Below, piece by piece: positions 248 to 20,769 of a stretch of 22,981 nucleotides of DNA. The position numbers were made by a program, and so were the translations under genes. Source of the DNA: Saccoglossus kowalevskii (lineage: Eukaryota; Hemichordata; Enteropneusta; Harrimaniidae); contig NW_003138331.1 in the NCBI RefSeq assembly GCF_000003605.2, forward strand, positions 142,389-165,369. Direction: 5' to 3'. The first letter of the stretch is position 1. Each line of letters opens with the position of its first letter. The notes beneath the pieces were generated by a model. That model had not been told where the DNA came from, made no database searches, and saw only the letters and a list, made by a program, of their open reading frames with translations.

Positions 248-1682
248 AAAACTAGGACACAATTCGCTTCCGTATGTTACCAGTATCATGAAAAAACTAA
301 CAATGGAGATCTCAAGTACCACAATAAATGTTATTCAAAAGCAAGACATCAACACAAATACCGATGATAATGTAATAAATGAAAGGTACGGTTTTTGTAG
401 CTCACACTCAAACACGATTGATAACATTGTGCCTTCGCTTCGTAATCTGTCTTTATTATAAGGTGTTCAATCAATACGTTTACTTTAGTATATATCAGTA
501 TATTTATCTGTAATCTTGCTATATTGCTGTTACAGGAAACGATTGGGACTGAGGTCAAGTTCATTCATCGTCAAAAAAGAAGACGGTTCAACCCATCCTA
601 TTTCTCAGCAGAATACGTGTGCAGTTGTTGGTAACAGTGGAATTCTTCTCAATAGCCGTTGTGGAAACGAGATCGACTCCAACGATTACGCCATCCACTG
701 TAATATTCCGGAAATTGAGAAGTACAGCCGAGATGTCGGAACCAATACAAACATTACTAACATGAATGCACCTAGGGTTTACGACATATTTGACCATGCG
801 AACAGAGATAAAGACTCCCTTAACCTATACGAGGAGTTTCGTTTTTTGAATAATTCGATATTATAGAGTCGTGGATCTACTGACACTGTTCGAACGAGTC
901 GTTTAGACTATTCCATTAAGTATCTAAAGTCAAAGTTCAACCTAAACTTTTCGTTAGTATACACGAAAGAGAAACTACAGTGTCCTGTGATAAAAAAGTA
1001 AGTTGTGCTAATTAACAATGGTCAACATGTAAAATTTACATTATTGAGTGACACAAACGCTGGTTTAATAATAAATACCATTATGTTCATGCTAATAAAA
1101 ATGTTACTGAAGAATCATTCATGATATATGATATATTTCATGATCGACGATCATTTCGGCTTTCAATATTTTGCTATATGTGAATTGCGTATGCTGAGTG
1201 TTACAAGGAGTATTGTATTTCGTGGATTTATAACAACTCGTTTCTCATTCGAATTACTGTGACGTACGGTAATATAGCAATACAGCATATTACAGGATGG
1301 TATGCACAAATACTACATAATAAACATTAAATACTACAAAATAAATTTGACAGAAAAACTAAAATAAAATGTAGCTCACAAAATTATTGACATTTGCTTT
1401 TATTTTAATTGCAGATTTATGAATGAAATTAAAGCCCCAACAGCAGGTATGATCGCAATTGCTGGAGCATTTTGTTTCTGTGAGAAAATCAGTGTATATG
1501 AATTGTATCCTTTCAGTACAGGGCAAGACGGCAGGAAGATACTTTATCACTATTTCGGAGAGATGAAAACCGAAATTTTAGATGACTTTGACACAGGCCT
1601 TAATTTTACACAGGAGTACTCGATACTACAATCATTGGACAGAGATGGAATTTTAAAAATAGTCTCTGCCAAATGTAAATAA
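248..1682 (+). pseudogene. Copy A: ST8Sia-like sialyltransferase, damaged, exon 1 outside window
   Basis: Exons by alignment to copy C: 248-385 (stem), 536-997 (sialylmotif L), 1415-1682 (motifs S, III, VS, stop). Lengths of 138, 462 and 268 nt match copy C exactly and all junctions are phase 2. The family (GT29, ST8Sia) moves sialic acid from CMP-sialic acid in the Golgi. Motif L is clear (CAVVGNSGILLNSRCG), as are S (PTAGM...VYELYPF) and III (YHYF). Three lesions argue against function. TAG at 864-866 replaces the Trp of the SILW segment. The motif L Arg before Cys-Asn is His (IHCN). The motif VS His, thought catalytic in this family, is Leu (LNFTQE). The reading frame stays open after the stop. 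The exon 2 acceptor (ttaaaag) is weak. Exon 1 should lie about 80 nt left of the window. A recent pseudogene is most likely; one TAG alone could be a sequencing error, but not all three changes. Confidence 0.85.
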
Positions 1683-2455
1683 AAACTGCAGTATCCAGTT
1701 ACAATCACGTTGACTGTGTATTTATTGGACTGTGATTGAATGATTAATGTATATCAAATATACATTTAGACAAGGTATTCTACCAGTACCAGATGATTAT
1801 GTTCTAAACAGCATTCAATGTTGCAGACTGAGCTACGTTACCGTTTTATGAAATTTCGTTCAATTCTGCATTATGGAAACTCAAGGTAGATTTGCAGGTT
1901 CATGGTTACTTGGAAGTAATTTATTTTTTTTTTGCTTTTTATTATCCAAATAGACTTGGCTATAGACTGTTAAAATGTTGTAGAATTGTGAATAGTGGAA
2001 CAAACTCAAAAATCGATTTCAAAATATAGATAACAGGTTCAAACATTCTCTCGTTTGAATTCTTAACAAGATTTAGCAAGGCTGTACATAAATAATAAAA
2101 AAGAAACATGGTGAAAAAAAGAAATGACGGGATCTCCATATTATGCACTATATTTAACTTTTAACAAAACGATAATACATTTAAATTATCTCAGCTTCTT
2201 TTTAGTGCACATCCCAGAACTTTATATAATAGCTTCTAGACGCTTTGACCTTTTGTTTTGAAATTTTCACAAATGATTGACAATGTGTTTCTCTTCAAAA
2301 CGCCGTCGGGGCATTGTTTTTGGTTGAACAGTGTTACAACAATCGTGCAGACAACAAGCCAGGGTGTAAATTTATGCATAAATTTGAAGTAGTGAAATTT
2401 AAGCTGCTGCCCTGCAAAATTGACAACTGGTAGACAGTTTTCAAGACGACACTTT
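1683..2455. other. 3' flank of copy A, shared with copy B, then unassigned DNA
   Basis: From 1683 to about 1860 the sequence matches the flank after copy B (5802-5985), starting with the shared aaaaactgcagtatccagtt and including tctaccagtaccagatgatt. This is probably the 3' UTR and downstream DNA carried along in the duplication. The AATAAA present after copy B at 5865 reads AATGTA here, so copy A may have lost its poly(A) signal. From about 1870 to 2455 there is AT-rich DNA whose right part may belong to the decayed Tc1-like element. No gene is seen. Confidence 0.6.
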
Positions 2456-3023
2456 CTACATAGTAAATAGATGTACCCATAAACCAGGCAATTTCTCAGG
2501 ACTATCGGTGTCGACTCGGTCATTTTGACTGTTGGGCTTCGGAAACAAATACAAGGGACACTGGTCGGAGAAAGTCCAGTTCTCCCAGTCCTCTAGGGTC
2601 AAGTTGGCATCCTTCCTGGTGAAAGACAGCCTCTTCCCTTTCTGGATATCTGTCATACGTTGTATTTTGGGCCAATTTTCTAGGTCAATAGCGATGAACA
2701 GTGCTCTTAGCACCTTTCTCGTCAATGTTGTTTAGTCTGCGACTCAACCGCCTGTATGATTGTCGCCTTCTACCATTGGCCTTCCTGATGATGTCCATGG
2801 CTCTGGCAATGAGCAAACGAGGACGTCCAGTTCGGGGTTTATCGTCAAGGCCTGCACCTTGCTTGTGACGTTTGGTCCACTTCCAAACCCATCGTACAGT
2901 CCTCCCCAAGGATGTGGAAACCTGCTCACAAGTTTTGCCCAGCTGGCTGAGCAGATGGTGTCGGAAGTGAGAATAATGGGTGTAAATGCCTGAACAAACA
3001 AGGCGAACAAACTTTTGTAACAC
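2456..3023 (-). mobile_element. Tc1/mariner-like transposase relic, frameshifted and truncated
   Basis: Read on the minus strand, 3023-2685 encodes a helix-turn-helix-like N-terminus with a basic linker typical of Tc1-type transposases (KPRTGRPR, then REAL-like paired helices ending STVHRY). A frameshift near 2700 moves the product into another frame, 2725-2456, which carries QKGKRLSFTRK, LTLEDWENWTFSDQ and LYLFPKPNSQNDRV. The segment LEDW...W-SD is the usual entry to the DDE catalytic domain and includes the first Asp. The rest of the catalytic domain and the other acidic residues are not recognisable. I could not find convincing terminal inverted repeats. It lies between copies A and B and cannot be active. 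The superfamily is clear; the subfamily is not. Confidence 0.75.
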
Positions 3024-3485
3024 GGTGTAAGACTGTTAAACTAAAAACGTTCATAGGAATACAAATATTCACTACAAATGGCATCATTTCTCCGGGTCGT
3101 TAATACTACATGCATCTTGTTTGCGTTCACTGACGCTGTAATGTATTCGATATCAAACTAAAACATTGCAACCATGTTTCTTTAATCCATTAAACGACAA
3201 TGCTTAATAGTACCAAATTAAAAAAAAATGAAGCCCATTTTTCTCACTTAATGTGTTTTATTTCCTCGATCGTTGCATTACAATCGTAGAATTACGAAAC
3301 AAACACTAGAGTAACTAAATATTTGATATATTTAGGGGGAAAACGACCCACTGAATCTGGTTATAATGGCGGAGACGTAGAATTAATGTGCATGAAGTAA
3401 GCCGAAATATTACATTTGTATACTTCTCTTTATGCATACGTGTTTTCAACGTGTAGAGAACATGCGGACGTTATGTCTTCTCTAG
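3024..3485. other. Unassigned DNA upstream of copy B
   Basis: AT-rich DNA with no supported ORF. The first part may be the end of the Tc1-like element. The last part should hold the 5' intron of copy B, because an acceptor-like site (tgtcttctctag, ending at 3485) aligns with one upstream of copy C. Confidence 0.4.
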
Positions 3486-5801
3486 AACTTTGGTTGCGAT
3501 TCAGTGCAGTAGAGTTCAGTGTAATCCAGTCGGTTCACACTTGCGTTATGAAGTTCCTAATTAGAAGATTCTCGTATCGCTTATTGTAGAATTAATAGTT
3601 CTGTTTATTGTTATGCATTCATACTTCCATGTTGAGCCCAGACAAACAAGACGAATCAGCATACAGTTCCCATCGAGGTAATGATATTTGTGTCATGTGT
3701 ATATTCATGTATCATAGAATGTAGAAACCTTATATACGTCGAATAGAATACATGGCTTAGTATGGTGTATGATTTCATTGTGTGATTTATATTATGAACA
3801 ATTCATTGCGTAAAATATCATTAGAGTACCGCCTCTGCACACTGGTGAAATGCAAGGACATGCAGTACAATCGAAACGCGTCGCTAGACAAAACGCGGCG
3901 ATACTCATAGCGAGGGTTCATAAAAGGATTGATGCATATATGTTTGCAAGTGTACTAATCAGTTATCACTGTTTAATTTTTTAAGAACTATATAGCATCT
4001 CTATTTTATACATGATTTATTTGTTACAGTAACAGGCAACAAGAAAACGAGTCAGTGCAGTTTTATATTACCGGTATCAGGGAACAAACATCTATAACCC
4101 ATAACCCATGAACTACTATTCATGTTATTGAAGCGCAAGGCGTCAACAATATGGCGAACGAAAATGTATGTCGCATGGTTATTAAATTGCAGTTTTTATC
4201 GCCTTATCGGGTGGGTCTCATTTCCTTGATGTTTAGTTCTGTTTCTCTCCTCAATAGATGATATCATAAATTTTGGGATTCCAGCGGTGAGCAACATCTT
4301 TACTATTGCCATATTCTTGTTCTACAGCAAACGATTAGGACACTTTTCTCAGAGGTCGAGTTTATTTTTCATCAAACAAGAGGATGGTTCAACTCATCCT
4401 ATGTCTCAGCAGAACACATGTGCCGTTTTTGGTAACAGTAGGATTCTTCTCGATAGCAGTTGTGGTGAAGAGATTGACTCCAACGACTTTGTCATCCGCT
4501 GTAACATCCCTGAAATTAAGAAGTACAGCCGTGATGTTGGAACCAAAACAAATATTACTCACATGAATCCACCTAGGGTTTACAATCTATTTGAACATGT
4601 CAGAAAATATAAGGATTACCTTAATCTTTATGAGGATTTTCGATTTTTAAATAATTCGATACTTTGGAGTAGCGGTTCTGCTGAAAGTGCTGGAACACAG
4701 AATCTGCTCAATTCAACCAATTACCTAATGTCAAAGTTTAATCTTAATTTCCGGATAGCGTATACGAAAGGCAAACTGCGGTGTACTATAATACATAGGT
4801 GAGTTATGTTAATTAATATTATACAAACATTTCAAGTAAACATATTTGACATTAATGCTGTCTGGAAAAATTACAATGTGGGAAATATGCATACTTTTTA
4901 TGTTACTTAAAGTTGCAACCTAGGGTAGTTAATGGATTGTTATTGAACTATTTTGTGATGTATCTGGTGTCCAGATTATGTGCGAATCGTAGAATATATA
5001 TGTATTGACTGTCGATTATGTTCATCGTGTTTGTCTTTCCATTTTGAATTCGCATTTACTTATACTTTTGAACAGTTCAACGTTGGTTCACAATCATTCG
5101 CCACAGCTCCAAATTAATGAGACTTATATTGATATTGAACAATGGCAACTCTGGACAAATACATAAACATTTACCGTGATTCGCGCATTTTTGTAAGTTC
5201 AAATGTTACATAATAGTAAGAAAACCCAAACAATTATGATGTACTTTTAGACTTAAAGATCATTTTATTTAGGACGGATATGATCAGCCGTTTATGTTTA
5301 TCGTGTCCTTGCAAACACATTAACCCGTTTGTAATTTACTTTGATGGCATTATATAGAGCATTACAATATGACAAGAAATTCATCGTGTATAATATAAAG
5401 CGATTGATATTACATAGCATTTCAACCACGTAATACTCTTTATGTAGCATGCTATAATTGTTTTAGATACACGGACCAAACAGGAAGTAGCTCACCAAAA
5501 TCCTGTCACATCTTTTGTCTTTTTTAATTCCAGATATATGAATGAAATAAACGTTGCCACAGCAGGTATGCTCGCAATTGCTGAAGCCTTTTGTCTCTGT
5601 GATAAAATCAGCGTATATGGATTTTATCCTTTTCTTACGGGACCAGACGACAAGACGGTACCTTATCATTATTTTGGAGAGATGGCAACCAAAACATTAG
5701 ATAACTTTGACACAGGACATAACTTTAGACAGGAATACTCGGTATTACAATTATTGGACAGAGATAGAATTTTAGAATTAGTCTCTGTCATATGTAAATA
5801 A
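3486..5801 (+). pseudogene. Copy B: ST8Sia-like sialyltransferase with broken exons 1 and 2
   Basis: Exons by alignment to copy C: 3486-3677 (ATG at 3548), about 4036-4150 (stem), 4328-4798 (motif L), 5534-5801 (motifs S, III, VS, stop). Exon 1 is 1 nt shorter than in copy C after the ATG, near 3569, so the signal anchor shifts frame and soon stops (TAG 3587). The stem exon has an in-frame TGA at 4109-4111 and has lost its donor; the nearest one (gtatgt) is in the wrong phase. Exons 3 and 4 are fully open and in phase. Motif L reads CAVFGNSRILLDSSCG, with Arg for the second Gly of GNSG. S (VATAGM...VYGFYPF), III (YHYF) and VS (HNFRQE) are kept. A candidate AATAAA is at 5865-5870. Either a pseudogene, or a gene now using another 5' end; the first is more likely. 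Confidence 0.8.
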
Positions 5802-6480
5802 AAACTGCAGTATCCAGTTACAATCACATTGACTCTGTAATTATTAGACTGTGATTGAATAATTAATAAATATCAAATATACATTTAGACAAGGTATTCT
5901 ACCAGTACCAGATGATTATGTTCTAAGCGAATTGTAATGTTACAGACTGAGCTATGTTTCCGTTTTATGTAAGTTCTTCATTATGGAATTATAAGTTTGA
6001 CAAATTTTATTTTAGATGAATGTATTGCAGTTAAGAATCTAATATTATATTATATGACGGACAAAAAGAGGAGGTGCGAAATATTTATTCACTATGGCAA
6101 ACGTTAATAATGAAAAGAGCAATCAAGAAGTAATTACCTATAGTCACGTGAATTACGTAATTAATATAAATGTAATATATGTATTGTTGTGAGCTAGCAT
6201 CAACAAATGAAAACGTTCAATCAATCGTTAAACAAGACCAAGGTTACATCGTTACAAAGATACATGTAAATGCCTCTACAATTCTGTATTGAGAGATGTT
6301 TGATTTGACATAGAGATTTTACTGTACGCACATTCCATGGATGATCTATTCATATCATTTGATAGCACTTACCGTATATATATAAATTATATACCACATA
6401 CATCAGCACCCGTCACAATCTGTCGTTTGTTACACTGGATAACGTTTGGCAACAAATTGGACAATCATTTATAAAACAAA
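5802..6480. other. 3' flank of copy B and unassigned DNA
   Basis: The first 180 nt or so match the flank after copy A. The rest is AT-rich with no supported ORF or RNA gene. It leads into the flank that copies B and C share. Confidence 0.5.
5865..5870 (+). terminator. Candidate poly(A) signal of copy B
   Basis: AATAAA lies 64 nt after the copy B stop, within the flank shared with copy A. The matching site in copy A is changed. No transcript evidence. Confidence 0.35.
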
Positions 6481-6960
6481 CCAAATATGTAATACTTCCA
6501 CATACATTTCTATCGATACCGCATAATCAGCATATTCACAGTATGACGTTTTTTTGCTAAACAACTGAATTTCATGGAAAAAATGTGAAGGAGAATATGA
6601 CCTATGTTAGTTTAATTTGCACGTAACGACCAGGTGCGTTGTCGTATCATTGTGTGTAATTCTACTCAGCCTGGGGTAAATAAAAGGCGGCCGGTATTTT
6701 TACGATTGTCACTTTGATGCTCACTATGGAGCTGCATGTTCTCGAGTAGCGATTGTTAGAAACTAGAAAAAATAGTAAGCACACACATAATAAAAAAGCG
6801 CATTAAACAACTTCATTGAAAAGTTGACTTTTGTATTTTGCAAACAATTTATTGATATTCGTATCAAAATAATTTATTATACACGGAAATAATATGGCTT
6901 ACAAACGCCACTACTTGGTATTACCTATTAAATTAAACACCATGCCGCGTCTGATACAAT
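6480..6960 (+). repeat. Segmental duplicate of the DNA after copy C (partner 15415-15855)
   Basis: The two blocks align over about 450 nt. Shared anchors include tttctatcgataccgca, gaaggagaatatg, gatgctcact, gctgcatgt, tgtattttgcaaacaattta and ttcgtatcaaaataatt. This shows that the duplicated unit extends well past the gene. In the partner block a TATA box and a splice donor can be proposed. Here the aligned box reads taaataaaagg (6677-6687) and the donor is gtaagc at 6775. If this was the promoter of the D-type gene, its target would be relic E. Confidence 0.75.
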
Positions 6961-7432
6961 GATAATAATAGCGTTTTGTCCTGGATGTTGTTATGAACAA
7001 GTGCTTACACATAAACGCATGATTAACTTTGATGAATATGTTTTCAAAAATCAATCTTATTTAGCCAATTAAACGTTGTTCCGACATGTACAGCAACAGT
7101 CAGTGTGGTACGTAAACACTCGCTATTCAAATAATCGCGTCATTGCACTTTTACAATTAATGCGAAGGTTGTTTACCGCATTCTCTTGTAATAAGGTGTT
7201 GTAGCACAGCATAAATATGTTAAATTAAAATTATTCAAAGTAATTCAGATATTTTAGCATAAAAATATATATGCCTCATTTAGGAATAAACGTAAAGAGA
7301 ATTGTAAAACATGCAAGATAACAGGAAATCTTAGCTGGTTTTTGCCCACGTATTTTGTACAGGTATCTCAAATATGATTATATTCATTGTGCAATGACTG
7401 TATTATTTGAAAATTGAAAAGCTCCCTCTAGG
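6961..7432. other. Unassigned DNA
   Basis: AT-rich DNA between the duplicated flank and the Ty3/gypsy relic. No ORF, RNA gene or clear repeat was recognised. Confidence 0.4.
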
Positions 7433-8147
7433 GACAAAGTCAGAGTAATAGAAATGACAAGCCTCCAAGTGACAAGAACGAACTGCAAACATTTCATTTA
7501 AACCCAAGCTGTCTGGTCACACACTCAGAACGACCAAATAGACACAGAGTCAACACTTGCCTAATATAACCAAAATAAATCAGTCATTCTTGTAGTTGAC
7601 GCTTCAACAATTGGCATAGAAGCAGTGCTAGTACAGGACCACTCGCTTTCGCATTCAAAGCACTGACTGGTACACACATATTGAACGCGAACTACTTGCT
7701 GTAATATATGGATGTGAAAAGTTTCACATCTATCCATACTGACAAACCTTTCGTGTCGAGAGTGATCATCGTACACTTCAACAAATTCACAAAAAGAACT
7801 TAACCAAATCTCTACCACGACTGCAGCAAATGTTACTACGCTTACAACCATATGTTTTTGACATCAGACATACACCTGAAAAACAAATGCTTCTGGCTGA
7901 TGCACTATCGCGTTTGTCACCACAGGAAACAACTGAAATCTCAGATATGAAAGTGATTATACGCCACCTGGTAAGCATTACACCAGTAAAGCTGTCAATG
8001 TTCTGTTAGAATGTTCTTAATGTTTGTCGGACAACAAGTTCATGTCCCATCAATAAGGGTTCTCCAGCAAAGATAATAAGCACAGCAAACACACCAAGGT
8101 CATATGAGATGGAGACAAAGACAGGAAGCCAGCTTTGCAGTTCATAA
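7433..8147 (+). mobile_element. Ty3/gypsy retrotransposon relic (end of RT, RNase H, integrase tail)
   Basis: Pieces of a gypsy-type pol can be read in shifting + frames. At about 7460-7495 is PPSDKNELQTF, the usual end of the reverse transcriptase connection. From 7579 the RNase H domain runs VILVVDAS..G.EAVLVQD, then AFAFKALTGT, RELLAVIYGCEKFHIY, VESDHRTLQQIHKKNL, PRLQQMLLRLQPY, and KQMLLADALSRL, ending near 8009. At 8061-8144 is NTPRSYEMETKTG-like sequence (here TANTPRSYEMETKTGSQL), typical of the C-terminal end of gypsy integrases. The integrase core is missing, and stops and frameshifts occur at several points (for example TGA at 7663-7665). No LTRs were seen. It is dead and lies between copy B and relic E. 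Confidence 0.85.
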
Positions 8148-8616
8148 ACACACACTTCAAATTACCAGCTGACCCACAGGAACAAAATGTCAACACTATT
8201 AGATTGTGAACAAACATTGTTTGCAGGTAAAACCACTCAACATCTAAATCTAAATTAACAAGAACTAGGAGTAATATATAGATGTCATCAAGATTCAAAG
8301 TTTATTGAATTCATTATTATAATCGAGGTATAACGTGATGTTTTACCATATCGTCGTACTCTTCATTATTGCGAATATCATTGACATTAACAAACTTCAG
8401 AGCATCTTCGATATTACAATTTGAAATGATTATTTTGCGATTTTGTATCCAGGCTTTATTATGTATACAGCGCCCTCGACATGCTATTCCACAAATATAC
8501 CTATGACGCATAGCTCTTCTCTTCATGGCTGCCTACATGAGATAAATACAGGTCAGGTTTGTAAATCACAATCCAGCCATTCTGGCTTCTACTCTATATT
8601 GGTGAACATGTAACAA
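8148..8616. other. Unassigned DNA with one unplaced minus-strand ORF
   Basis: May include the end of the gypsy relic. A minus-strand ORF at 8526-8317 would give 69 residues, rich in Arg and Asn, ending VKHHVIPRL. I do not recognise it and see no partner exon, so I do not call it a gene. Confidence 0.35.
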
Positions 8617-9934
8617 TGACGATATCAACGACCCGGCTGTAACATGATGATGCTGGTAACATAACAAATATTACCAGTTTCAATTTACCCAGTGTGAAGA
8701 ATATGTACAGTCTCCGGTATCTGAATAACACAATGTTTAGGAATGTTGGTTCATCACGAACTATAGCAAAAGGAAAATTGAATTCCATCGAACATCATGT
8801 TTAAATCCAATTTTTGTCGGGTGGGCGACCGCCCCCACTGCCCTCCGGTGCCGGCTAATTAAGGTGAGATTCATTTAATTTTTCGGAAAATGTTCAAGGA
8901 TGTTCTAGTGGTGTGGGTGGTGACTGTTCTGTCGAAACCATGGTCGTTTCTTGTCACATCTGGTTATAAACACACACAAAACGTCGACCAAGACAATGGT
9001 CTGACATTTGAAAAGTCATTGGATGGGACTATTTCTCTATCGGGTGCGATTTCAATTAGGACTTTTTAGTAAGTTTTGCATGAGTATGTGTTCGACTGGT
9101 CTGGCAATGGCATCATGACAGAAAGATGGTATCGGACATAGTTTGGTTTGATGCTCAAGGTCATTATCATTCCTTCTTATTATCGTATCGTTGGTAGTCA
9201 TGCATGAGTGCGTATTGCATTAACACGTTATCAGTTTCAATATACAATAATTAGAACCTAACTGAAATTAAATATTGTTCAAAACAGGTAAAAGTTTTAA
9301 CTATATAGTTTGTTTAAACATTGCGTTTTCTTGAATTAAACATAAAAAAGAATGGTAGTACTTCAACGTACGCGCTTTCTGAATTTCAATATTTCGACAA
9401 TCCTGCACTACTTCCAGTGTGAATAACAAACAACAATGTTATAAATATACAGTCAATCAAATATAATTTCAACGCACTATACAAATTATGCCACATGTAT
9501 AAGTATTACGTAGTATATAAAGGAAATAAAAAGGGCAACCTAGATGTATACTGCTATATATAACATTATTTGCATTATCTAAAATATCTGATTCCATGAT
9601 AGAAACATCAATTATACCTCATCACTGATTCTGTATTCAATAGCGTTGTCTTCACGACACAAATTTTTGAATCAATTCCGAACTAGTATATTATTTCAGC
9701 TACAGTTTTAAATTGCTTTATTCCTTTTAATTTCCTTTGTTTTTTTATTGCGGATTATTTGAACAAGATATATATCCATTAATAGGTATATTTACAACAT
9801 TTGCTGCTTATGTTCTGTGCGATAAGATTGGAGTTCATTGATGTTGTTCATTTCCTACACGGCCTCGTGCCAGAATTACAATATTACAATCCTTGAACAC
9901 AAATTTTAAAATAGTCACTGACAAATGCAAGTTA
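8617..9934 (+). pseudogene. Relic E: decayed D-type sialyltransferase (motif L and S exons only)
   Basis: Two exon remnants match copy D. The first, about 8617-8790, keeps the post-motif-L part: TNIT-like start, PSVKNMY, LRYLNNTM and VG.SRTI, with internal deletions that remove motif L itself and a segment before the LRYLNN stretch. The second, about 9752-9934, keeps GIFTTFAAYVLCDKIGVH and ends at a TDKCK-like C-terminus, but lacks the piece with motifs III and VS. Its splice acceptor reads attgcgg where copy D has attgcag, and the stop TAA reads TTA. The intron between the two remnants also aligns to intron 3 of copy D (for example ccagtgtgaataacaa at 9415 and 20219). Exons 1 and 2 were not found. 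Clearly non-functional. Confidence 0.85.
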
Positions 9935-11640
9935 CGAAAACAGGATATAAATGTGAATCTTTGCTGGTAGCTGTTACAGATCATAAATTTGATGAGCTGA
10001 TACTTATGTAAGTTGGGTCAATACAATTTGATAGAGATGCAAAACGTATTTAAATGACTTACTTGCCAGTTTTTTTTTTCGTTTTAATTTCTTATTATTT
10101 TTGAATTCATGTAAGACAGAGCAAAACTGTCTTTAAACGTGGACAAACAGTTCCCAGACAGGTGGACACACAATTTTATTTTGTAGAATAACTAATTATC
10201 ATAAGTATACAGTATTTAACATATTTCACTGTTACTCGTCGGTAACACAAAGGTAATTAGGTAGAAACGTGTAACTATAAAATGGTTAAAACATTTATAC
10301 AATTAGTCAAACAGCTCATTGCCCGTTAGTTACCACAAATAATATTTATACAATTTATTATTTTGTTTTATCATCTCGAGGCCTCTGTCTTATATCAAAT
10401 ATAATATTATTAGTTTTAAATTAAATGATATATTTTTGCTTATCCAAGTATTGAATCCGTGACCAATCGCGCCCGTCAATGAAAGGTCACAAAATATCAA
10501 GATCAAATATAGCATAATACACATTTCACCCCACTGAGCGTACCAGATGGTTACCGCCCTGAACGAACTACACAAATTTGGCGACCGTTGGATATTGCAA
10601 ATAAGCTCTTTTATGTTGGATATTGTTAATACGTTCGTCGTTCACAATAATTAATATTATACATGGCATAATACTCAATTTATTCCTGGTTATGGCGATT
10701 TGGCGATTAACTGCGTCCTCGTCGATGGACTCAAATTGATTGAACAATCTAAACATGATTATGTCCGATCAGATTGTGATTAGTAGAACCCACCGTATGT
10801 ACGCTTTGAATCATACCTTATTGAACAAACACATCTCTGTGTAATCGCCTAGACTTCTGTGACTTTATAAAATTGTCATTAGAAAAACTTGGCCATCAGA
10901 ATCATTTTAAAAAAATCTAACGTAGATATTTGGTGGTTATTATCCTAGAAGGTACATTTTTCATAATTATCAATGACATATTGATACATGTTAAACTGAC
11001 AGAAAAACGGTTTACATGTTTATCTCCAACTAATATATACATCATTCAATCACGTAATTATCAGCAAACAAAACGTACTCCTAAAATCAACTCTGAATAT
11101 ATGCCACGATATTAACATATTAATACTATATCCGGTTCTTCAAGAGCACTATGGGTACTATGATGACGGAACATCGCATTACATCACATCACGTATTAGA
11201 AAATAGACGGACGCCCACCTTTAACCCAGGTAAGTTTAGTAACGTAGCGCTATTCTATTGGAGGTCGTAGTAGTCATTGATGTGATATCAAAATCTGACT
11301 TTTTTCATTCTACTGTTTATATTGAATAATATATACAGTTATAATACAGGTCGAGTACGTGCCAACTAAATTAATAACAGAAAATAAGTGCCATCGATTT
11401 AAAAATATATATATATATATAACAAAATACGTTTTACCAATTGTCATGTGACTGTCATTTCATCCCCTAATTTAAGACTCCAGATTTGTTATGTTGTCAA
11501 TCACTTGCGTATGTTTTACTTTTCCCACAGAAAATATGGCGCGGCTAATACTTTTCGCACGTTGCTTCTTACTATGATGTGCAACATTGATATGCCTGTG
11601 TAGCTGTATGAAATGTTGTTGGATGATCTATATCGACCAA
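9935..11640. other. Unassigned AT-rich DNA
   Basis: No supported gene. Short ORFs here have no recognisable domains or splice context. A short AT run is at about 11403-11420. If copy C has an untranslated first exon and promoter, they lie somewhere between here and 12624, but I could not place them. Confidence 0.4.
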
Positions 11641-11767
11641 GTTTAAAGCGCAATGGTCGTCGCGCACCGCGTGTTCGAATTTCATGTAAATAGACAATGT
11701 ATTTAACATGCGTTGTATACGTCCCTATATCGAACAGGACGCGGGACGACGACTACCGCCCTTTAAT
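11641..11767. repeat. Imperfect inverted repeat, 38-nt arms, GC-richer than surroundings
   Basis: The left arm is 11641-11678 and the right arm 11730-11767, separated by 51 nt. Arms share TTAAAG, GTCGTCG, CGCGT and GTTCGA in opposite orientation (gtcgtcgcgcaccgcgt against acgcgggacgacgac). This could be a small MITE or a long hairpin. No coding sequence lies inside. Confidence 0.6.
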
Positions 11768-12624
11768 TATGTAAATACAAGACGCTGTCCGTTAGACAAC
11801 GCATTATTCTGATAGTAATTTAGAGGCGTTCTCCACAACGAAGATTGATGACACTTGGTTACTCTACAAAATCGTACTTAATACCAAATTACATGCTCCG
11901 CAGTTCATACTATTATAATAAATCTTAGACGACATCGGGAATTTACGCTTACACATTATACTACTATTATGATTGGTTAACTATTTCGGAATCATGTTTT
12001 GTAATGACAGCAACAATTAGTGCCTGGCTCGACAAAACACGTATGTTTGCTGTCCAAACAATTGTTTAATTACACCTTTTCAATGAGTGGGAAATTGATT
12101 ATTTGTTTAAGCATGGTAGTTTTTTAAGCTTAGCGTAATTACCATCTCGATTGTTATCAGTATGCAAAATATTACCAATTTCTGTAATTATACATAAATT
12201 TATCTAAATTTGCATATAATTTGGAACACATACAGCGTACCTAGCTCAATGACCTTCGAGTCGTTCATTGTGATCTGGAAATAGTGACTGAATAAATATT
12301 CATACATTAGCGGCAAACACGCAAATTGTTTTCAGATTATTTTAGGACTAAATATAAATTATAAATATATGTGTGTGTATATTTCCAAAAAAAAAACTAC
12401 TTAATTACTTGGCGCAATTTAAAGAAATAAAGTAAGCAAATGTCCTATAATCAAACAAATTATAAAATCACATGCCTCTTTCAAGTACAATGAGAATTCC
12501 ACGTGTTTAAAATCCTTGATCATTAATGTTGTTGATGTCATATTTCATTGCAAATATGATTGGGAGAATCACTGTGATTATGTGACTGGCTTAGTTAAAA
12601 CAATTCTCTTATATTGTTTTTTAG
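11768..12624. other. Unassigned DNA, likely 5' intron of copy C
   Basis: No ORF or RNA gene recognised. It ends at a good acceptor-like tract (ttatattgttttttag) that aligns with one upstream of copy B, so at least its end is probably a 5' UTR intron. Confidence 0.4.
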
Positions 12625-14721
12625 GGAAGTGATTTTAAATCAGTTCAGCACCATTTACCCTCACTGTATGCAGTAATTGTACACTCGCATTATGAAGTTC
12701 ATAATTAGAAGATTGTTCGTTTCGCTCATTGCAGTGGCATTAGTTCTGTTTACCTTTATGCATTCAAACTTACATGTCGATACCAGACAAACGGAAGAAA
12801 TCCGCTTGCAGTTTATAGAGAGGTAATTATAATTTGTCTATGAATATATACAAATAGTTCGATATTTATAAAGAACACACTGTTTGATTCTTATTAAGTC
12901 GAAGTACGCCACTTATAAAGATGTTTTATGTTCTACAAATAGTAGTTAGAGTGTGTTTTTAATAGAGTAATACGTCACACTACTGGTGGATGACAAATAC
13001 GCTTACGAATCGTTACATTGTAAATAAAACAGGAAATGTATATGTTTCAATCTAATTTTTACTTGGATTTCTGATCAGAATATTCATGAAATAATATGCA
13101 TTTTTGATACAAGGGATCAAACGGGTTGCATGATGGGGTATTACGAAACATGTGAAATCTTGTGTATATTAAATGTAACAGGAAACCGCAAAACGATTCA
13201 GGTCCTTATGTTACCAATATCATGGAAAAACTAACAACTGGCATCTTAAGTACTACAATAAATGTTATCGGAACGCAGGATATAGACAAAAATACTGATG
13301 ATAATGTAATACATGAAAGGTACGTCAATAGGTTTTCCAATCTCATATCCAAACACGATTGATATCACGGTGCGCTTCTTAAGCTATCTTAATTTTATAG
13401 TTGTTTAATCAATATGTTTACTTCAATACATATCAGTATATTTATCTGCATATATTGTTATTACAGCAAACGATCGAGACCGAGGTCAAGTTCATTCATC
13501 GTCAAAGAAGAAGACGGTTCAACCCATCCTATTCTTCAGCAGAATACATGTGCAGTTGTTGGCAACAGTGGGATTCTTCTCAATAGCCGTTGTGGAAATA
13601 TGATCGACTCCAACGATTTTGTCATCCGCTGTAATATTCCGGAAATTGAGAAGTACAGCCGAGATGTCGGAACCAAGACAAACATTACTCACATGAATCA
13701 ATTAAGGATTTACGACTTATTCGATCAGGCGAAAAGAAATAGAACCTCCCTTAACCTATACGATGAGTTTCGTTTTTTGAATAATTCGATATTATGGAGT
13801 CGTGGTTCTACTGAGGATGTCCGAACGAGTCGTTTAGACTATTCCATTAAGTATCTAAAGTCAAAGTTTAACCTACACTTTCCGTTAGCATACACAGGGT
13901 GGAAACTACAATGTCCTGTGATAAAAAAGTGAGTTATGCTAATTAACAATGGTCAACAGAAAAATTACCATTAATTAATATATACCGTTGTATTGATGCT
14001 AATAAAAATTGTACTATGCACGAATTAAGGAATATTGCGTTGGCTGATTCTATCGAATAGTATAGTATTCCGTGAATTAATAACAACTCGGCAATTTCTC
14101 AATCATTATTATCAACGCCACTTAGACTGTAGTTATATAAAGGATTGTTCTCGCATTCATTCATTCTTGCTTTTATTTATTTCGTAGTTTATCAGTAGAT
14201 TATACCACTTCTTTGTAAAAGTTTTGGTTGTGTATGTGTGGGTGGGGATGTAATTGGATTTCGAGGACAAAAATACAGATATATATCAACTTCCGAGGAC
14301 ATATCCACTTTCCAAGGTCCTCGGAAAACATATAAACAACATTTATAATAATATTTAATTCGATTATTAATACGTTTTGCGTAGATTAGGTTTAAAAAAG
14401 GAGGAAGGTATGATACAGTTTTTATTAATATTAATATAATTGTACCATACCTTCCCCCTTTACTTCGCAAACATTTCTATGTTCAGTCTCGGGATATTCA
14501 ACTTTTATTTATTTAAAACGCACTTCTATGTTGAATTACATTGTAATCGAGTTTAATTAAACTCAAATTAAACGCAACTATATTGAGATTTAATGCAAAA
14601 TGCGTCTTTACAACGACGGTAAGACATATGTGTGTGTCTAAAACATAATACAATGTTTGTAGTTTCTTGTAACGACATTATATAATGTAGTACATTACAG
14701 GATGGTATGCACCAATACTAC

Positions 14722-14810
<89 letters not shown>

Positions 14811-15183
14811 TAAATTCTACATGAACTTTGCGAATAAATCAATGGATTTGACACATACAATAAAAAGAATGTAACCCATAAAGATAATTTATATTTGGTT
14901 TTGTTTTAATTGCAGGTATGAGATTGAAGTTAAAGCTCCTACAGCAGGGATGCTCGCAATTGCTGCAGCTTTCTGTCTGTGTGAGAAAATCAGTGTATAT
15001 GGATTTTATCCTTTCCTTACGGCACCAGACGGCAGGACAGTACCTTACCATTATTTTGGAGAGATGGCAAACAAAACATTGAATAACTTTGACACTGGGC
15101 ATAACTTTAGATATGAGTACTCGATATTGCAATCGTTGGATAGAGATGGATTTTTGAAATTAGTCTCTGACAAATGTAATTAA
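12625..15183 (+). CDS. ST8SIA-like: Copy C: intact ST8Sia-like alpha-2,8-sialyltransferase
   Basis: Coding exons: 12692-12822, 13182-13319, 13467-13928, 14916-15183. They join in phase (all introns phase 2, GT-AG) to 332 aa, close to the 350-400 usual for ST8Sia. The ATG at 12692 is chosen because a signal anchor follows at residues 8-23 after a basic start. Residues 45-89 form the stem. Motif L starts at about 117 (CAVVGNSGILLNSRCG, then FVIRCN; Cys118, 132, 145). SILW follows. Motif S is 252-277 (PTAGM...VYGFYPF), III is 288-291 (YHYF), VS is His306 to Glu311 (HNFRYE), and a C-terminal Cys331 is kept as in ST8Sia enzymes. Several N-glycosylation sequons are present. It should be a Golgi type II enzyme moving sialic acid onto sialylated glycans. 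The region before motif S is short and not strongly basic, unlike the polysialyltransferases ST8Sia2/4, so polymer synthesis is not implied. The linkage is inferred from family only. Confidence 0.88.
14291..14326. repeat. Short perfect inverted repeat in intron 3 of copy C
   Basis: TTCCGAGGAC (14291-14300) and GTCCTCGGAA (14317-14326) are perfect reverse complements, 16 nt apart. A related half-site, ttcgaggac, is at about 14259-14267. Confidence 0.6.
14394..14462. repeat. Long near-perfect hairpin in intron 3 of copy C
   Basis: The left arm (about 14394-14415, aaaaggaggaaggtatgata) and the right arm (about 14440-14462, gtaccataccttccccct) are near reverse complements, with an AT-rich spacer of about 25 nt. 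The matching introns of A and B do not show it, so it looks like an insertion, perhaps a tiny MITE, or a palindrome grown in place. Confidence 0.6.
14722..14811. repeat. (AAT)n microsatellite, about 30 units
   Basis: An uninterrupted run of ATA/TAA triplets lies in intron 3 of copy C. Copy A has the same flank (ggatggtatgcacaaatact, 1296-1315) with only cataataa at that site, so the expansion is specific to copy C. Confidence 0.9.
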
Positions 15184-15348
15184 AAAACTGCAACATTAAA
15201 ACAGAAATCATACTAATCATTTACAATATGGCGGCCATATGATCATCATACAGATCACAGGTTGTTGTTTGTGGTAACAATACAGCTATAAAATCAAACA
15301 CACACACAATATAGATCCAGCGTAGTTATTCCAACATTCTTTTTTTTT

Positions 15349-15354
15349 AATAAA
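15349..15354 (+). terminator. Candidate poly(A) signal of copy C
   Basis: AATAAA, 166 nt after the stop of copy C, following a T run. It is the first such hexamer downstream that I noticed. No transcript evidence. Confidence 0.3.
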
Positions 15355-15414
15355 TAACTCGGAGTAAAAACACTAGACACTGCTTGAAAACAAATTAGGA
15401 TATGTAATACATGC

Positions 15415-15855
15415 ATTTCTATCGATACCGCATTTTTCAGTCTTCTTCACATTATAATGTCATGGCTGAAATATGAAGGAGAATATGTCCTATGTACGCA
15501 TCTAATTTATGTAGCTAACACGTGCGTTGTAGTGTCATTGTGTACAATTCTATTCATCTTTTGGTTATAAAGAGAGACTAGTATATTTACAATTGTCGTG
15601 TTACTCTGATGCTCACTGTTGTGCTGCATGTCCTAAAGTACGGCTGGTCGAAGAATAGTGAGCAGACTAATCATAAAAAAGGTTCGTCTGATATTTAGCG
15701 CAGTATATATCATCACTGAAAAGTTTGCTGTTGTATTTTGCAAACAATTTATTATTATTCGTATCAAAATAATTCATTATTACACAGGAATAATATCTAT
15801 TAAAAACTACTTAGTATTACCTGATAAATTACATATCATGCCGCTTCTACTATAA
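15415..15855 (+). repeat. Segmental duplicate of the DNA after copy B (partner 6480-6960)
   Basis: Aligns to 6480-6960 over about 440 nt with small indels. The match ends near a short ATA-rich run (15854-15885). It contains the proposed promoter and first exon of copy D. Confidence 0.75.
15566..15657 (+). promoter_or_regulatory. Proposed TATA promoter and untranslated first exon of copy D
   Basis: TATAAA at 15566-15571 is followed about 30 nt later by a block kept in the duplicate (gatgctcact...gctgcatg) and then by a splice donor, GTGAGC, at 15658. The duplicate at 6677-6775 has an AT-rich box (taaataaaagg) at the matching place and donor GTAAGC. Copy D has a strong acceptor just upstream of its ATG (ttttattcag, ending 17704), so an untranslated exon upstream is needed; this is the best candidate. 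The resulting intron would be about 2.05 kb. Inferred from conservation and splice sites only. Confidence 0.4.
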
Positions 15856-17704
15856 TAATAATAATAATATTAATAATTATAATAATGTGTCAGCAAAGGA
15901 ATTTGACAAACTGTCAAAGTACAAAGACAGAAAATAACACTGCACACCTGCTGAGAAAAGCGTTATCAATTTAGACTTTTTACGTTTTGTTGGTGATGAT
16001 TTGGTACGTTTTGTGTGTATGATTATCGTTTTGAGCCATCCTTACTTTTATCCTCAGGTCTTTGGGTAAGACTCGGCATTTGGACTGTAAAACAGCAGAT
16101 CAAAAGGACATACTAAAAAACATAATAATAATAATACGATACACTTTCGCTGTACGCATCTAGCGGGGTATCTGAAGCCAACAAATACTCTGTTGCTTGT
16201 CCTAGTTCACATATAGATAGCGAAACCATGTTTGTTGGAGAGGTTATTGCACGACAAATCCGTGATATTGCGCTGTTTTAATCGTGATTTAATATTTTGA
16301 CAAATTGATCAAATGCCAAGTATTTAACAAGGTAAATTCCCCGAAATGAATGACAAGAACAATCATATTATATATATATGCACATTTTCGGTCTTACTAT
16401 TCTAATATATTGTTGTTGTTGTTGTTTTTTGGCGAGCAAACAAACTAACTAATATCCTAGATTAATGTATTTCATAATGCAGCGAATTTATTCATTTATT
16501 AGGCAACATCTAGATCCGCTGATCTGTAAAATTCGTGTTTAAATTACTCTATTTTTGTGCTCTCGTACAAACCTTGTTTGTAAAGCCATCTTATTTGGAT
16601 ACATTTGGTGAGTAATTTAAAGTCGGAGCTGTGACATAATTATTTCAAAAAATAGGTAACAGGGTGTTGCAGTGTAATTACAATTATGTGTGTATTACTC
16701 CTAATGGTAGTACTAAAACCATAGTACCCCCCCCCCTGTTGGCATATAAAAAGCAGCTGATCTTGTGATAAAACACTATTGGGCGGGCGCTACAACACAT
16801 GGATAAAATTGAAACCGCAGAAATGTACTTAACTTGCATTTTGGGTAATTATATGACGTGGCTGTTCTACATAACACGCTTCGTGAAGTAAGAGGTCTTT
16901 TAAATCTCACCGAATAGGAGTTGAATATCGACCTGTTCTAACAGCACAGTAAGTTCATAAACATTTCATTTTCATTACACATAAGTAATTACCGCGTTAG
17001 TGCCATATTACTACCACTGCACGTAGCTTTCGAGCATTGAAACAATGCGACGAGGCTGTCACGTGACCTGAACATTGAACAAATTATTTTTACTATTGAG
17101 TTTATTTTGTACTTAAATCAAATCAAACATCACAAAATAATGGTGTATGCGCCAACCACAATTTCAAATATCAAAAATAAACGTGCTAAACATTTAGATA
17201 TATTTAAATAGCCAATGGTGATATGTTGGGGTCTGTTGCGTAATGCTCCACTTTTCAAATCAGGCGCTTGTATGAACGCAACAAAGTAACCGGCTCGCTA
17301 ACGCGATGCATGGTGTTTGCGTACGTTGTAGTGAGTGTTATTTCCTTTAAGTAAGGTGTTCTTCCACTTGATATCCACCCCCCCCCCCGATTCCTCTTTT
17401 GTATTGGGCGAATGTCAATATGTCGAACAAGCATAACATATAAGATATGTGTTGCAGCATAAAAACCATAGAATGTGGTTACACGTTTCGTAATTAACTA
17501 ATTGTATGCAAAAGAATAAATTTGTGGCAATTGTCGGGGTATACTTTTTTTTAAATGTCTGAGAATATGCATGTGACGTTTATACAGTCAAATATGATTC
17601 CCTGTTTCGGTTGCAAGATTCGAAATCTATATTTGATTGTGTTAGTGAAAAGAATAGAAATTAATGAGCATAATTAACATAGACAAATTATTCATTTTAT
17701 TCAG
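15856..17704. other. Unassigned DNA, presumed 5' intron of copy D
   Basis: No supported ORF or RNA gene. It holds low-complexity runs: ATA repeats at about 15854-15885, ATA at 16120-16135, a TTG run at about 16410-16425, and C homopolymers at about 16727-16736 and 17379-17388. Confidence 0.45.
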
Positions 17705-20700
17705 CATGATCCATTGTTTGCGATTGATGGTCTCAGTATGAAAAGCTCAAGCCCAGCGTTGTTCTCATTGCTAGTTGTCGTCGGATCAGTTGTATATGTA
17801 TTACTGTACTTAAATATATCTAAGAAGAACTGGCAAAGCAATTGGAAATATGACGTAATGTGAGCAATTTAATCTATAGATCGTGGTATAATTCTTTAAT
17901 TACACATGGTCTAGTTTTGCAGTTTTATTTTTAACGATGATATTATTATTATTAGTAGTAAGTAACATGACAGTGTTTTATCTTTGTCAGCCTAACTGGA
18001 AATGCGACACATTCACCAGTTGGTTTTATAAACCACTATCAGCCAAAAAGCATCCCAGGAAATGTCAGCGATGTTAATAAACTTCAAGATGACATGAAGG
18101 AGGACAATATTGAAACAATTAGGTACGTCGCAAACACATCATCATTGCATCATTACATCGGAAAGCATTTACAAAAAGTTGGCAATTTGGATCATATTAA
18201 AAATAGAACGTATATGTTTGGTGATTCTCAACCAAAAATGGGTATTTGTACCACTACGATTACATGTCAACATAAATTCGTTTTCCATTATAAACAAATT
18301 ATCGAGCTTTTACGACAATACTTGAAATCAAAGGTACACATGAAAGTTAAGGTATTGTATTTGAGCATTGTCTTTTACCTGAGATTGTGGGATGTTTTCT
18401 AAGGAAGATATTTTCCGTCTTACTTCAATAACTTACCTTGCCACAGTCTGGGTTACATTTTGGGTTCTCTCAGTGTATCTACTCTTGTAAAGTATAAAAT
18501 TCCACAAAGATAAGCTAATTCTTGTTCGCTGACAATTATCGATTAATAATTATTCCTTCGAAGAACTAGAGGTAAACTGTGACACTACTGGTTTTGTGAA
18601 TTACATTATTTAATAAGATCTGTGTTTCGATTTCATATATTTTAGTATATTTTAGTCATCAAAGCCCAAACCTTCAATATTGCTAAAGAGAAAGGTGGGT
18701 TTTTTGGGTTTTTTTTTCGTCATAACTGCATACAATTATGATACAATTTTAATAGCTTGCAAAATGCTTTGATATCCAGACAAAACTCTCGTTCTGCACC
18801 CATTGATACACCTAACATCGTGAGCTTTGAAGAAATTCGACATCGGATATTTTCTGAATAAAATTGCAGGCTATAACAACGTGTATTGATAGCAGATGCC
18901 CTAATAAAATCAAAACTTTTTTAATGTCAGGTTTTATTTCTCGTACCTGGCTGTAGCCACAAATTTGTTCTATTGTATTGTTACGCTTAAAAACCAGGCC
19001 TGAACAGTTACCATATTTTGAGGTAGTCTTTTACATTTCTGTTTTAAATGACCCGTTTATTATATGCTTTATTGATCCAATTGATTAATTGACAGGCAAA
19101 ATAGAAATAAGAAAAAAGGAAAATAATTACAAACGTCAGAACACATAATCAATCTAACAAAAGCCATAACGTATTTAAAAAAGTAAATTATCATGTGATT
19201 ATTAATATATTTTCTTTACAGCATGCATATTTCGGAAATTCGTGCAGCAGACAATCATTTCGCCTTTCTGGGAGAGCACAATTCAGGCAATCAAATTGCG
19301 CGACAGAAGACGTGTGCTGTTGTTGGTAACAGTGGAATTCTTCTGAATAGTAATTGTGGTGACGAGATCAACTCCAACGACTTTGTTATCCGCTGTAACA
19401 TCCCAGAAATTGAAGGCTTCAGGAATGACGTTGGTAAAAAGACAAATATCACAAGTATCAATGTACCCAGTGTGAAGAATATATACATGTACGCAAACAC
19501 TGACATTCAATTGCTGAATATCCCCGATAATCTGCGGTATCTAAATAACACAATGTTGTGGAATGTTGGTACATCGCGTACAATTATAGCGGAACGACTA
19601 ATATATTCTATTAACCAGATCAAGTTTAATTCCAATCTAAATTTCCGGATTGTGCACATAGAAAATGAGAAGATCGTTTGGAATATAATAAGGTGAGATC
19701 TGCTTTTAAACACACACAAAACAATCGACCATGACCTTCCTTGGTCAAGTCTTACACAGACGCAATTGGATTGCCAAAGCATGGGATTATGTCACTAACA
19801 TATGCATGAGATTGTGTTCGACTGAAACTGGCGGATGCTGTGTTATAATATTAAATTCCACAATGATATTATGACATATAGATGGTATTCAGGACCCTGT
19901 GACATAATTTGGTTTAATGCCCACGGTCATGCGCATATCTTTGTTGAAGGGCGGCACCTTTATGCTTGCGAATATCTTGCGAGCGTCACGAATTGCTTGA
20001 ACATAATATCAACTTCAATACACAATGATTTCTAAAATGTAACGGAAATGAAATATATATCAGGTATAAGTTTAACCTTATTTTTTTTAGATTTGCGTTT
20101 TCTTAAATTAAATACTTGCTACACAATAATTTATGATATTTTAACAATTTCATCTAAAGGGATTGTCGCACGTACACACTTTCTCATTTTCAAAACTTCG
20201 ACAACCCGTCATTTCTTCCAGTGTGAATAACAATCAAATACAATGATTTACATATTCAATCAATCAAAAGCAAATATAAACATATTCCAAATAAATAAAT
20301 ATAAGCCGAATCTAAACGACGTGACGTGACGTGAAAAGACATATGTCCATACATACGTACACACGATACAAGCATTCCGCAATGTTCTATTGTTTTCTGT
20401 GACAGTCTCAGCTATTTGACATTCACATTCCCATTTGTCTTGCAAATGAATTTACGAGAATCATACTACAATATGTGTTATATGTTATTTTTTTATTGCA
20501 GATTATTTGACCTTGACAGATCACCATCGACAGGTATGTTTACAACATTCGCTGCCCTTTTCCTGTGCGATAAAGTTGGAGTTTATGGATTTTATCCATT
20601 TCCTACTGGGCCTGATAACAGAATAATTCCCTACCACTACTTTGGAGAAATGGCGAACAAAACAATAATATCACTCAAAACAATGCACAATTTTAAAGAA

Positions 20701-20769
20701 GAATACTCGATATTACAATCCCTGGACAAAACGGGAATTTTAAAATTTGTCACTGGCACGTGCAAGTAA
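17705..20769 (+). CDS. ST8SIA-like: Copy D: intact ST8Sia-like alpha-2,8-sialyltransferase, second type
   Basis: Coding exons: 17738-17859, 17991-18122, 19222-19692, 20502-20769. All introns are GT-AG and phase 2, joining to 330 aa. The ATG at 17738 has A at -3 and opens a signal anchor (residues 8-25, FSLLVVVGSVVYVLLYL); upstream ATGs at 17706 and 17727 are out of frame, the latter a 4-codon uORF. The stem exon has two sequons (NAT, NVS) and no visible similarity to that of copy C. Motif L starts at 115 (CAVVGNSGILLNSNCG, FVIRCN), then TMLW. Motif S is about 250-275 (PSTGM...VYGFYPF), III is YHYF, VS is His304 to Glu309 (HNFKEE), and Cys329 is near the end. All hallmark residues are present, so an active Golgi sialyltransferase is expected. 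Acceptor specificity cannot be read. Divergence from copy C in the stem but not in the catalytic exons suggests an older duplication. Confidence 0.88.

Follow-up and report, generated by a model that had tools for sequence, protein, structure and literature searches.

How did five sialyltransferase gene copies come to stand in a row, all in one orientation and only two of them whole, in 23 kb of hemichordate DNA? The window (the entire stretch of 22,981 nucleotides analysed here) holds five ST8Sia-like copies of the GT29 family, which follow one another on the + strand as A, B, E, C and D. We consider it probable that they result from the duplication of a block of genes, the decay of one of its copies (B+E), the formation of A as a chimera and the exchange of exon 4 between copies, acting together.

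The five copies and their condition

The genes, as far as each is preserved, are as follows.

248..1682, + strand: copy A, very probably a pseudogene; exon 2 248-385, exon 3 536-997, exon 4 1415-1682
3548..5801, + strand: copy B, pseudogene; exon 1 from 3548, exons 3 (4328-4798) and 4 (5534-5801) open
8647..9946, + strand: copy E, D-type pseudogene fragment; exon 3 remnant 8647-8811, exon 4 remnant ~9750-9946
12692..15183, + strand: copy C, intact; exons 12692-12822, 13182-13319, 13467-13928, 14916-15183; 332 aa; ST8Sia catalytic domain
17738..20769, + strand: copy D, intact; exons 17738-17859, 17991-18122, 19222-19692, 20502-20769; 330 aa

An earlier note on this DNA had described five GT29 copies in one direction, and this is what we find: Pfam family PF00777 scored above its cut-off in all eight main-exon stretches scanned (two from each of A, B, C and D), and the remnants of E match D. 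NCBIfam, which covers bacterial and archaeal proteins, matched none of four exon stretches. The five are part of a larger cluster, however, with at least four additional copies downstream on the same contig: F (+), G and G' (-), H (+) and I (-). F resembles G at 91% and I at 86%, in inverted orientation, over exon 3 and adjacent bases. Across the single assembly searched (572 Mb in 4830 contigs) at least 135 GT29 matches were counted exon by exon; the sequences taken from it, 29 regions off this contig and 8 loci overlapping these, are a subset of the GT29 genes of the genome. The mitochondrial code of the assembly points to a hemichordate host: at conserved places of COX1 and ND1 its mitochondrial contig uses ATA for Ile, AAA for Lys, AGA for Ser and TGA for Trp, and AGG is absent from these two frames. 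Table 3 of PMC3121625 lists this combination for Saccoglossus kowalevskii, in contrast to echinoderms (AAA Asn) and chordates (ATA Met).

Whole-gene models built on GT-AG splice borders were taken for C and D, and exon edges elsewhere. Each of these two genes has four open exons with GT-AG borders, all introns being in phase 2, and an N-terminus that, judged by eye, appears to carry a short tail and a hydrophobic anchor. For both, the best solved match is PDB entry 5bo6 (E = 1.8e-30 for C and 9.9e-28 for D), aligned over the catalytic domain through the C-terminal Cys; the entry is titled as a human alpha 2,8-sialyltransferase, the gene for which we take to be ST8SIA3. In that alignment sialylmotifs L, S, III and VS are retained in C and D, including the His and Glu of motif VS, at what we presume to be the motif positions in these copies. 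With an alpha-2,8-sialyltransferase as top solved match and the C-terminal Cys in place, C and D are ST8Sia-like, an assignment that comes from the best solved match. Their identity to the human protein is low, and linkage and acceptor are not readable from sequence. Family membership suggests that both encode working, if putative, Golgi type II sialyltransferases, which would add sialic acid to glycans.

The gene anatomy also supports directly the view that C and D are the sole whole copies among the five, A being judged without its exon 1. That exon is expected to the left of window position 1, where all 30 of the 30 kb fetched read as N, and the intactness of A is for this reason only partly judgeable. 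What is present of A carries an in-frame TAG (864-866) and a His to Leu change in motif VS. The lesions of the other two copies are equally direct. B has a 1-nt frameshift near 3571 in exon 1, followed shortly by a stop, an in-frame TGA at 4109-4111 in exon 2, and FGNSR in place of VGNSG in motif L. The exon 3 remnant of E lacks motif L and its exon 4 remnant is internally deleted over motifs III and VS; E remnants match D exon 3 at 84% and 75% identity. Two of the copies, B and E, are dead; the same very probably holds for A. In exon 3 the dN/dS ratio is 0.71 for A-C but only 0.26 for A-B and 0.24 for B-C, which fits relaxed constraint in A; in exon 4 this signal is absent from A-C (0.27) and present to some degree in A-B (0.48). 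Tandem copies of the same type standing beside disabled ones are the hallmark of a birth-and-death cluster.

The copies are of two types, as the earlier note had proposed. Our exon trees each comprised 16 hand-picked rows, not a random sample; the one for exon 3 held A, B, C, D, F, G, H, I and K together with seven other genes of this genome. It omits J, whose exon 3 breaks off, and G', which is partial, and further hits were also left aside. A, B and C group together in exon 3 (aLRT/UFboot 79.4/73 for DNA, 97/98 for protein) and in exon 4 (99.7/98 and 99/99), where their internal order is weak. A pairs with C in exon 3 (99.3/87 for DNA, 94.8/98 for protein). D groups with H and K in exon 3 (91.6/88 and 87.5/80), and is not joined to them in the exon 4 tree. 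E is the sister of D in both exons (99.8/100 in exon 3, 97.6/98 in exon 4), nowhere nearer to A, B and C. These sister relations, seen directly in the trees, are those that had been predicted: B nearest to A or C, E nearest to D.

Shared flanks and the order of the copies

What would place these copies in blocks is the DNA between them.

6423..6970, + strand: intergenic stretch after B; matches 15338-15866 at 68.6%
15338..15866, + strand: intergenic stretch after C; shared with 6423-6970
10879..10979, + strand: decayed D-intron-2-like piece; resembles 18169-18265; out of block order, after E

The match between the DNA downstream of B and that downstream of C, which had been pointed out before, is a direct observation. 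When 6423-6970 was used to search the 572-Mb genome, by a DNA search that skips very common words, it was found in two places, itself and the stretch after C (72%, over query positions 146-548). With just these two places listed, it is unlikely to be a mobile or dispersed repeat.

It is likely that B+E and C+D arose when a C-type and a D-type gene were duplicated together in one block. The ancestral pair would have stood in the order C-type then D-type, and the copies in B+E would have decayed after the duplication. From B to E, the pieces matched in C-D are, in order, 3516-4887, 5456-5809, 6423-6970, 8647-8811, 8953-8994, 9105-9876 and 9879-9946, which as summed rows amount to ~3.3 of the 6.4 kb of the B-E block. 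The continuous collinearity of 3.4-9.9 kb with 12.6-20.8 kb that the earlier note expected is thus patchy, about half of B-E being covered; the opposite outcome, collinearity absent outside the genes, did not occur in full either.

Could the C-type and D-type genes instead have been copied separately, leaving the B-E and C-D orders a coincidence? We regard this as doubtful, though with some evidence on its side. A sensitive scan found no match at E 0.5 between 6970-8650 and 15860-19430. D exons 1-2 have no detected counterpart near E. The D-like piece at 10879-10979 lies after E, not before it. The E/D intron divergence (JC 0.54, 0.46-0.64) also exceeds that of the B/C flank (0.37, 0.31-0.44), the intervals not overlapping, and a single shared duplication date is therefore plausible, not demonstrated. 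Against separate copying, the stretch common to the B and C flanks faces E and D and was found in no third place, and all strong matched pieces keep the same order and strand. Of the earlier claim of two copies of one block, then, the pairing of E with D and of B with A and C, and the flank in two places, stand; the match is patchy and its divergences differ.

The piece at 10879-10979 scores 34.5 against D intron 2, compared with a best of 23.5 among 200 shuffles, and is not placed by a simple block model. An open stretch of D, 18124-18400, was considered as a possible transposon piece and set aside: a genome search with it returned itself alone, and it matched no Pfam family above cut-off. 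That search missed the weak piece at 10879 too, so short diverged copies escape it.

Copy A and the history of exon 4

Why does A resemble C over most of its length and B at its end? The second resemblance is clearest beyond the gene.

1683..1874, + strand: A 3' flank, B-like; 87.4% to 5802-5992, not alignable to C
5802..5992, + strand: B 3' flank shared with A; alignment to 1683-1874

The earlier note had seen that the 3' flank of A matches that of B, as this alignment bears out, and had taken A for an extra C-type copy. A is indeed C-like through intron 3: its identity to C is 89.0% in exon 3, 78.7% in exon 2, 79-83% in intron pieces and 69% in one upstream piece, and the end of its intron before exon 4 is 73% identical to C against 60% to B (one 60-base window). 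Exon 4, however, is nearer to B (82.5%) than to C (79.5%), so that A is a mosaic; exon 4 and the 3' flank contradict A as a simple twin of C.

The mosaic is directly visible in the distances. In exon 3 the synonymous distances are 0.16 for A-C, 0.87 for A-B and 1.07 for B-C; in exon 4 they are 0.62, 0.35 and 0.46. The A-C synonymous counts differ between exons (15/102 in exon 3, 23/54 in exon 4, p = 0.0002), and A-B (p = 0.006) and B-C (p = 0.011) differ in the opposite direction. Among the six pairs tested, which were not a random choice, A-C, A-B, B-C and H-K show such a difference; F-I (p = 0.44) and D-H (p = 0.18) do not, though D-H, being near saturation, is a weak control. Informative sites shift likewise, from AC|B 100, AB|C 29 and BC|A 15 in exon 3 to 15, 23 and 27 in exon 4 (chi-square p = 4e-10). 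A single-breakpoint permutation test over exons 2-4 gave p = 0.0005, the lowest value that 2000 permutations can yield, with the inferred break at A 1435/1436, ~20 bases inside exon 4. Inter-copy distances that shift along a gene beyond chance, as these do, are the mark of gene conversion or unequal crossing-over. Many exon 4 sites single out A (the 27 sites of BC|A), as expected of a decaying copy.

Exon 4 topology is less decisive. Its pairing of A with B is weak (18.9/61 for DNA, 62/73 for protein), and a separate 12-row tree pairs B with C. In AU tests exon 4 retains each of the three ways of grouping A, B and C (p 0.25, 0.55, 0.58); exon 3 rejects the exon 4 tree (p 0.0001), and exon 4 retains the exon 3 tree (p 0.07). 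As exon 4 alone gives no significant clash of topology, the mosaic rests on the distances and the 3' flank.

Plain birth and death without exchange, in which the 3' flank of A and B is ancestral and was lost in C, and the likeness in exon 4 reflects differences in rate, seems to us improbable. It can draw on the failure of exon 4 alone to reject the exon 3 topology, and on the rearranged 3' side of C, where the flank match to B starts only at 15338. Yet the A-C synonymous distance is ~4x larger in exon 4 while those of A-B and B-C are smaller, and a change of rate alone should shift all three pairs one way; the third-position triplet test, at p = 3.5e-6, also disfavours it. The birth-and-death pattern claimed earlier leaves these distances unexplained when taken alone, A being a C/B mosaic with exon 4 apparently exchanged. 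An assembly artefact, whether uncollapsed haplotypes or misjoined contigs, is hardly credible: N does flank the window on both sides, but noncoding identity among the copies is 61-87%, low for alleles, and their lesions differ.

On the exchange reading that we prefer, A would be a chimera to which a C-like gene contributed the 5' part up to and including intron 3, and a B-like gene the 3' end. Gene conversion or unequal crossing-over would have joined the two, with the break close to where intron 3 meets exon 4. The B and C lineages would also have exchanged exon 4, the exon that holds sialylmotifs S, III and VS. We infer the direction of these exchanges, as we do the order of events at the locus. 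Mismatches between A and B number 47 in the 269 bases of exon 4 and 15 in the first 153 bases of flank (p = 0.03); a single B-like tract over both is possible, and the flank could be a younger tract. More generally, tandem duplication would make copies, which would swap parts with their neighbours and often decay afterwards.

A second case lies outside the window. H, on the same contig, and K, on contig C4225, are 68% identical over the exon 1-3 region and 88% over a tract of ~410 bp centred on exon 4; their synonymous distance is 0.32 in exon 3 against 0.04 in exon 4 (p = 0.0002). J shares this exon 4, with synonymous distances of 0.09 (H-J) and 0.05 (J-K). We suggest tentatively that exon 4 may have been copied repeatedly among paralogues while exon 3 diverged, in A, B and C and, separately, in H and K. 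If so, a shared catalytic exon would be shuffled among enzymes with differing motif L exons.

Relation to known glycosyltransferase clusters

This 23-kb case brings together block duplication, decay and exon-sized exchange, and illustrates how invertebrate deuterostomes may diversify their sialic-acid enzymes. It also carries a caution: a tree built from whole genes of such a cluster can blend histories. Among titles and the opening parts of abstracts, we found no report of gene conversion among sialyltransferases and no publication on a hemichordate sialyltransferase cluster.

The closest parallel is with the ST8Sia EX genes, which are tandemly duplicated in amphioxus and have relatives in sea urchin, as described by Harduin-Lepers et al. 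(2008, PMC2564942), where the sialylmotif names are also given. The likeness lies in tandem ST8Sia-type GT29 genes of invertebrate deuterostomes with the sialylmotifs and C-terminal motif. Here the host is a hemichordate, and the broken copies and the chimeric one are resolved. The main text of that report uses none of the words "exon", "intron" and "pseudogene". Tandem ST8Sia arrays were already known from amphioxus; the present analysis adds a test of the block, the lesions of the copies, the mosaic structure of A and the second exon 4 case.

Exchange between copies has its own precedent in another glycosyltransferase group. Among the Sec1-type fucosyltransferases, one paralogue is reportedly a pseudogene in some species. 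Gene conversion between copies is described for Sec1 and related alpha1,2-fucosyltransferase paralogues (PMC4398370). Unlike that group, the family here is that of the sialyltransferases, and the exchange is centred on one exon.

GT29 copies downstream of the window

Outside the window, the contig that holds it (C2960) carries at least four additional GT29 copies, located in three stretches (L014-L016):

F, L014:582-1548
G and G', L014:5600-4283
H, L015:7251 to L016:476
I, L016:4948-4086

Around exon 3, F is 91% alike to G and 86% alike to I, in inverted orientation.

Contig end and contig C4225

The end of C2960 is occupied by a repeat:

71269-73752 on the scale of the window (stretches L016-L017), tandem satellite with steps of ∼66 bp

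C2960 stops inside the cluster, and this satellite may be the reason. A second contig, C4225, may continue the cluster. Two GT29 copies, J and K, both close to H, lie near its start (L033, L034).

Possible mobile-element traces and an open frame in the window

A fragment in the window gives a Pfam match above the cut-off:

2688-3035, minus strand, transposase-like HTH fragment (HTH_23)

Nearby, the segment 2149-2486 has an inverted copy (79%) between exons 3 and 4 of H. Within the block formed by B, E and their intergenic DNA, 7743-8009 gives a weak RT_RNaseH match below the cut-off (E 0.008) and is perhaps a retrotransposon remnant. An open frame of 92 codons (18124-18400), continuous with exon 2 of D, matched only itself among the matches listed in the genome search; it could represent a longer exon 2 or have arisen by chance.

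GT29 across the genome

The genome search lists at least 135 GT29 matches, 13 of those listed being on contig C2071 and 12 on C2109, and some of those listed genome-wide contain internal stops.
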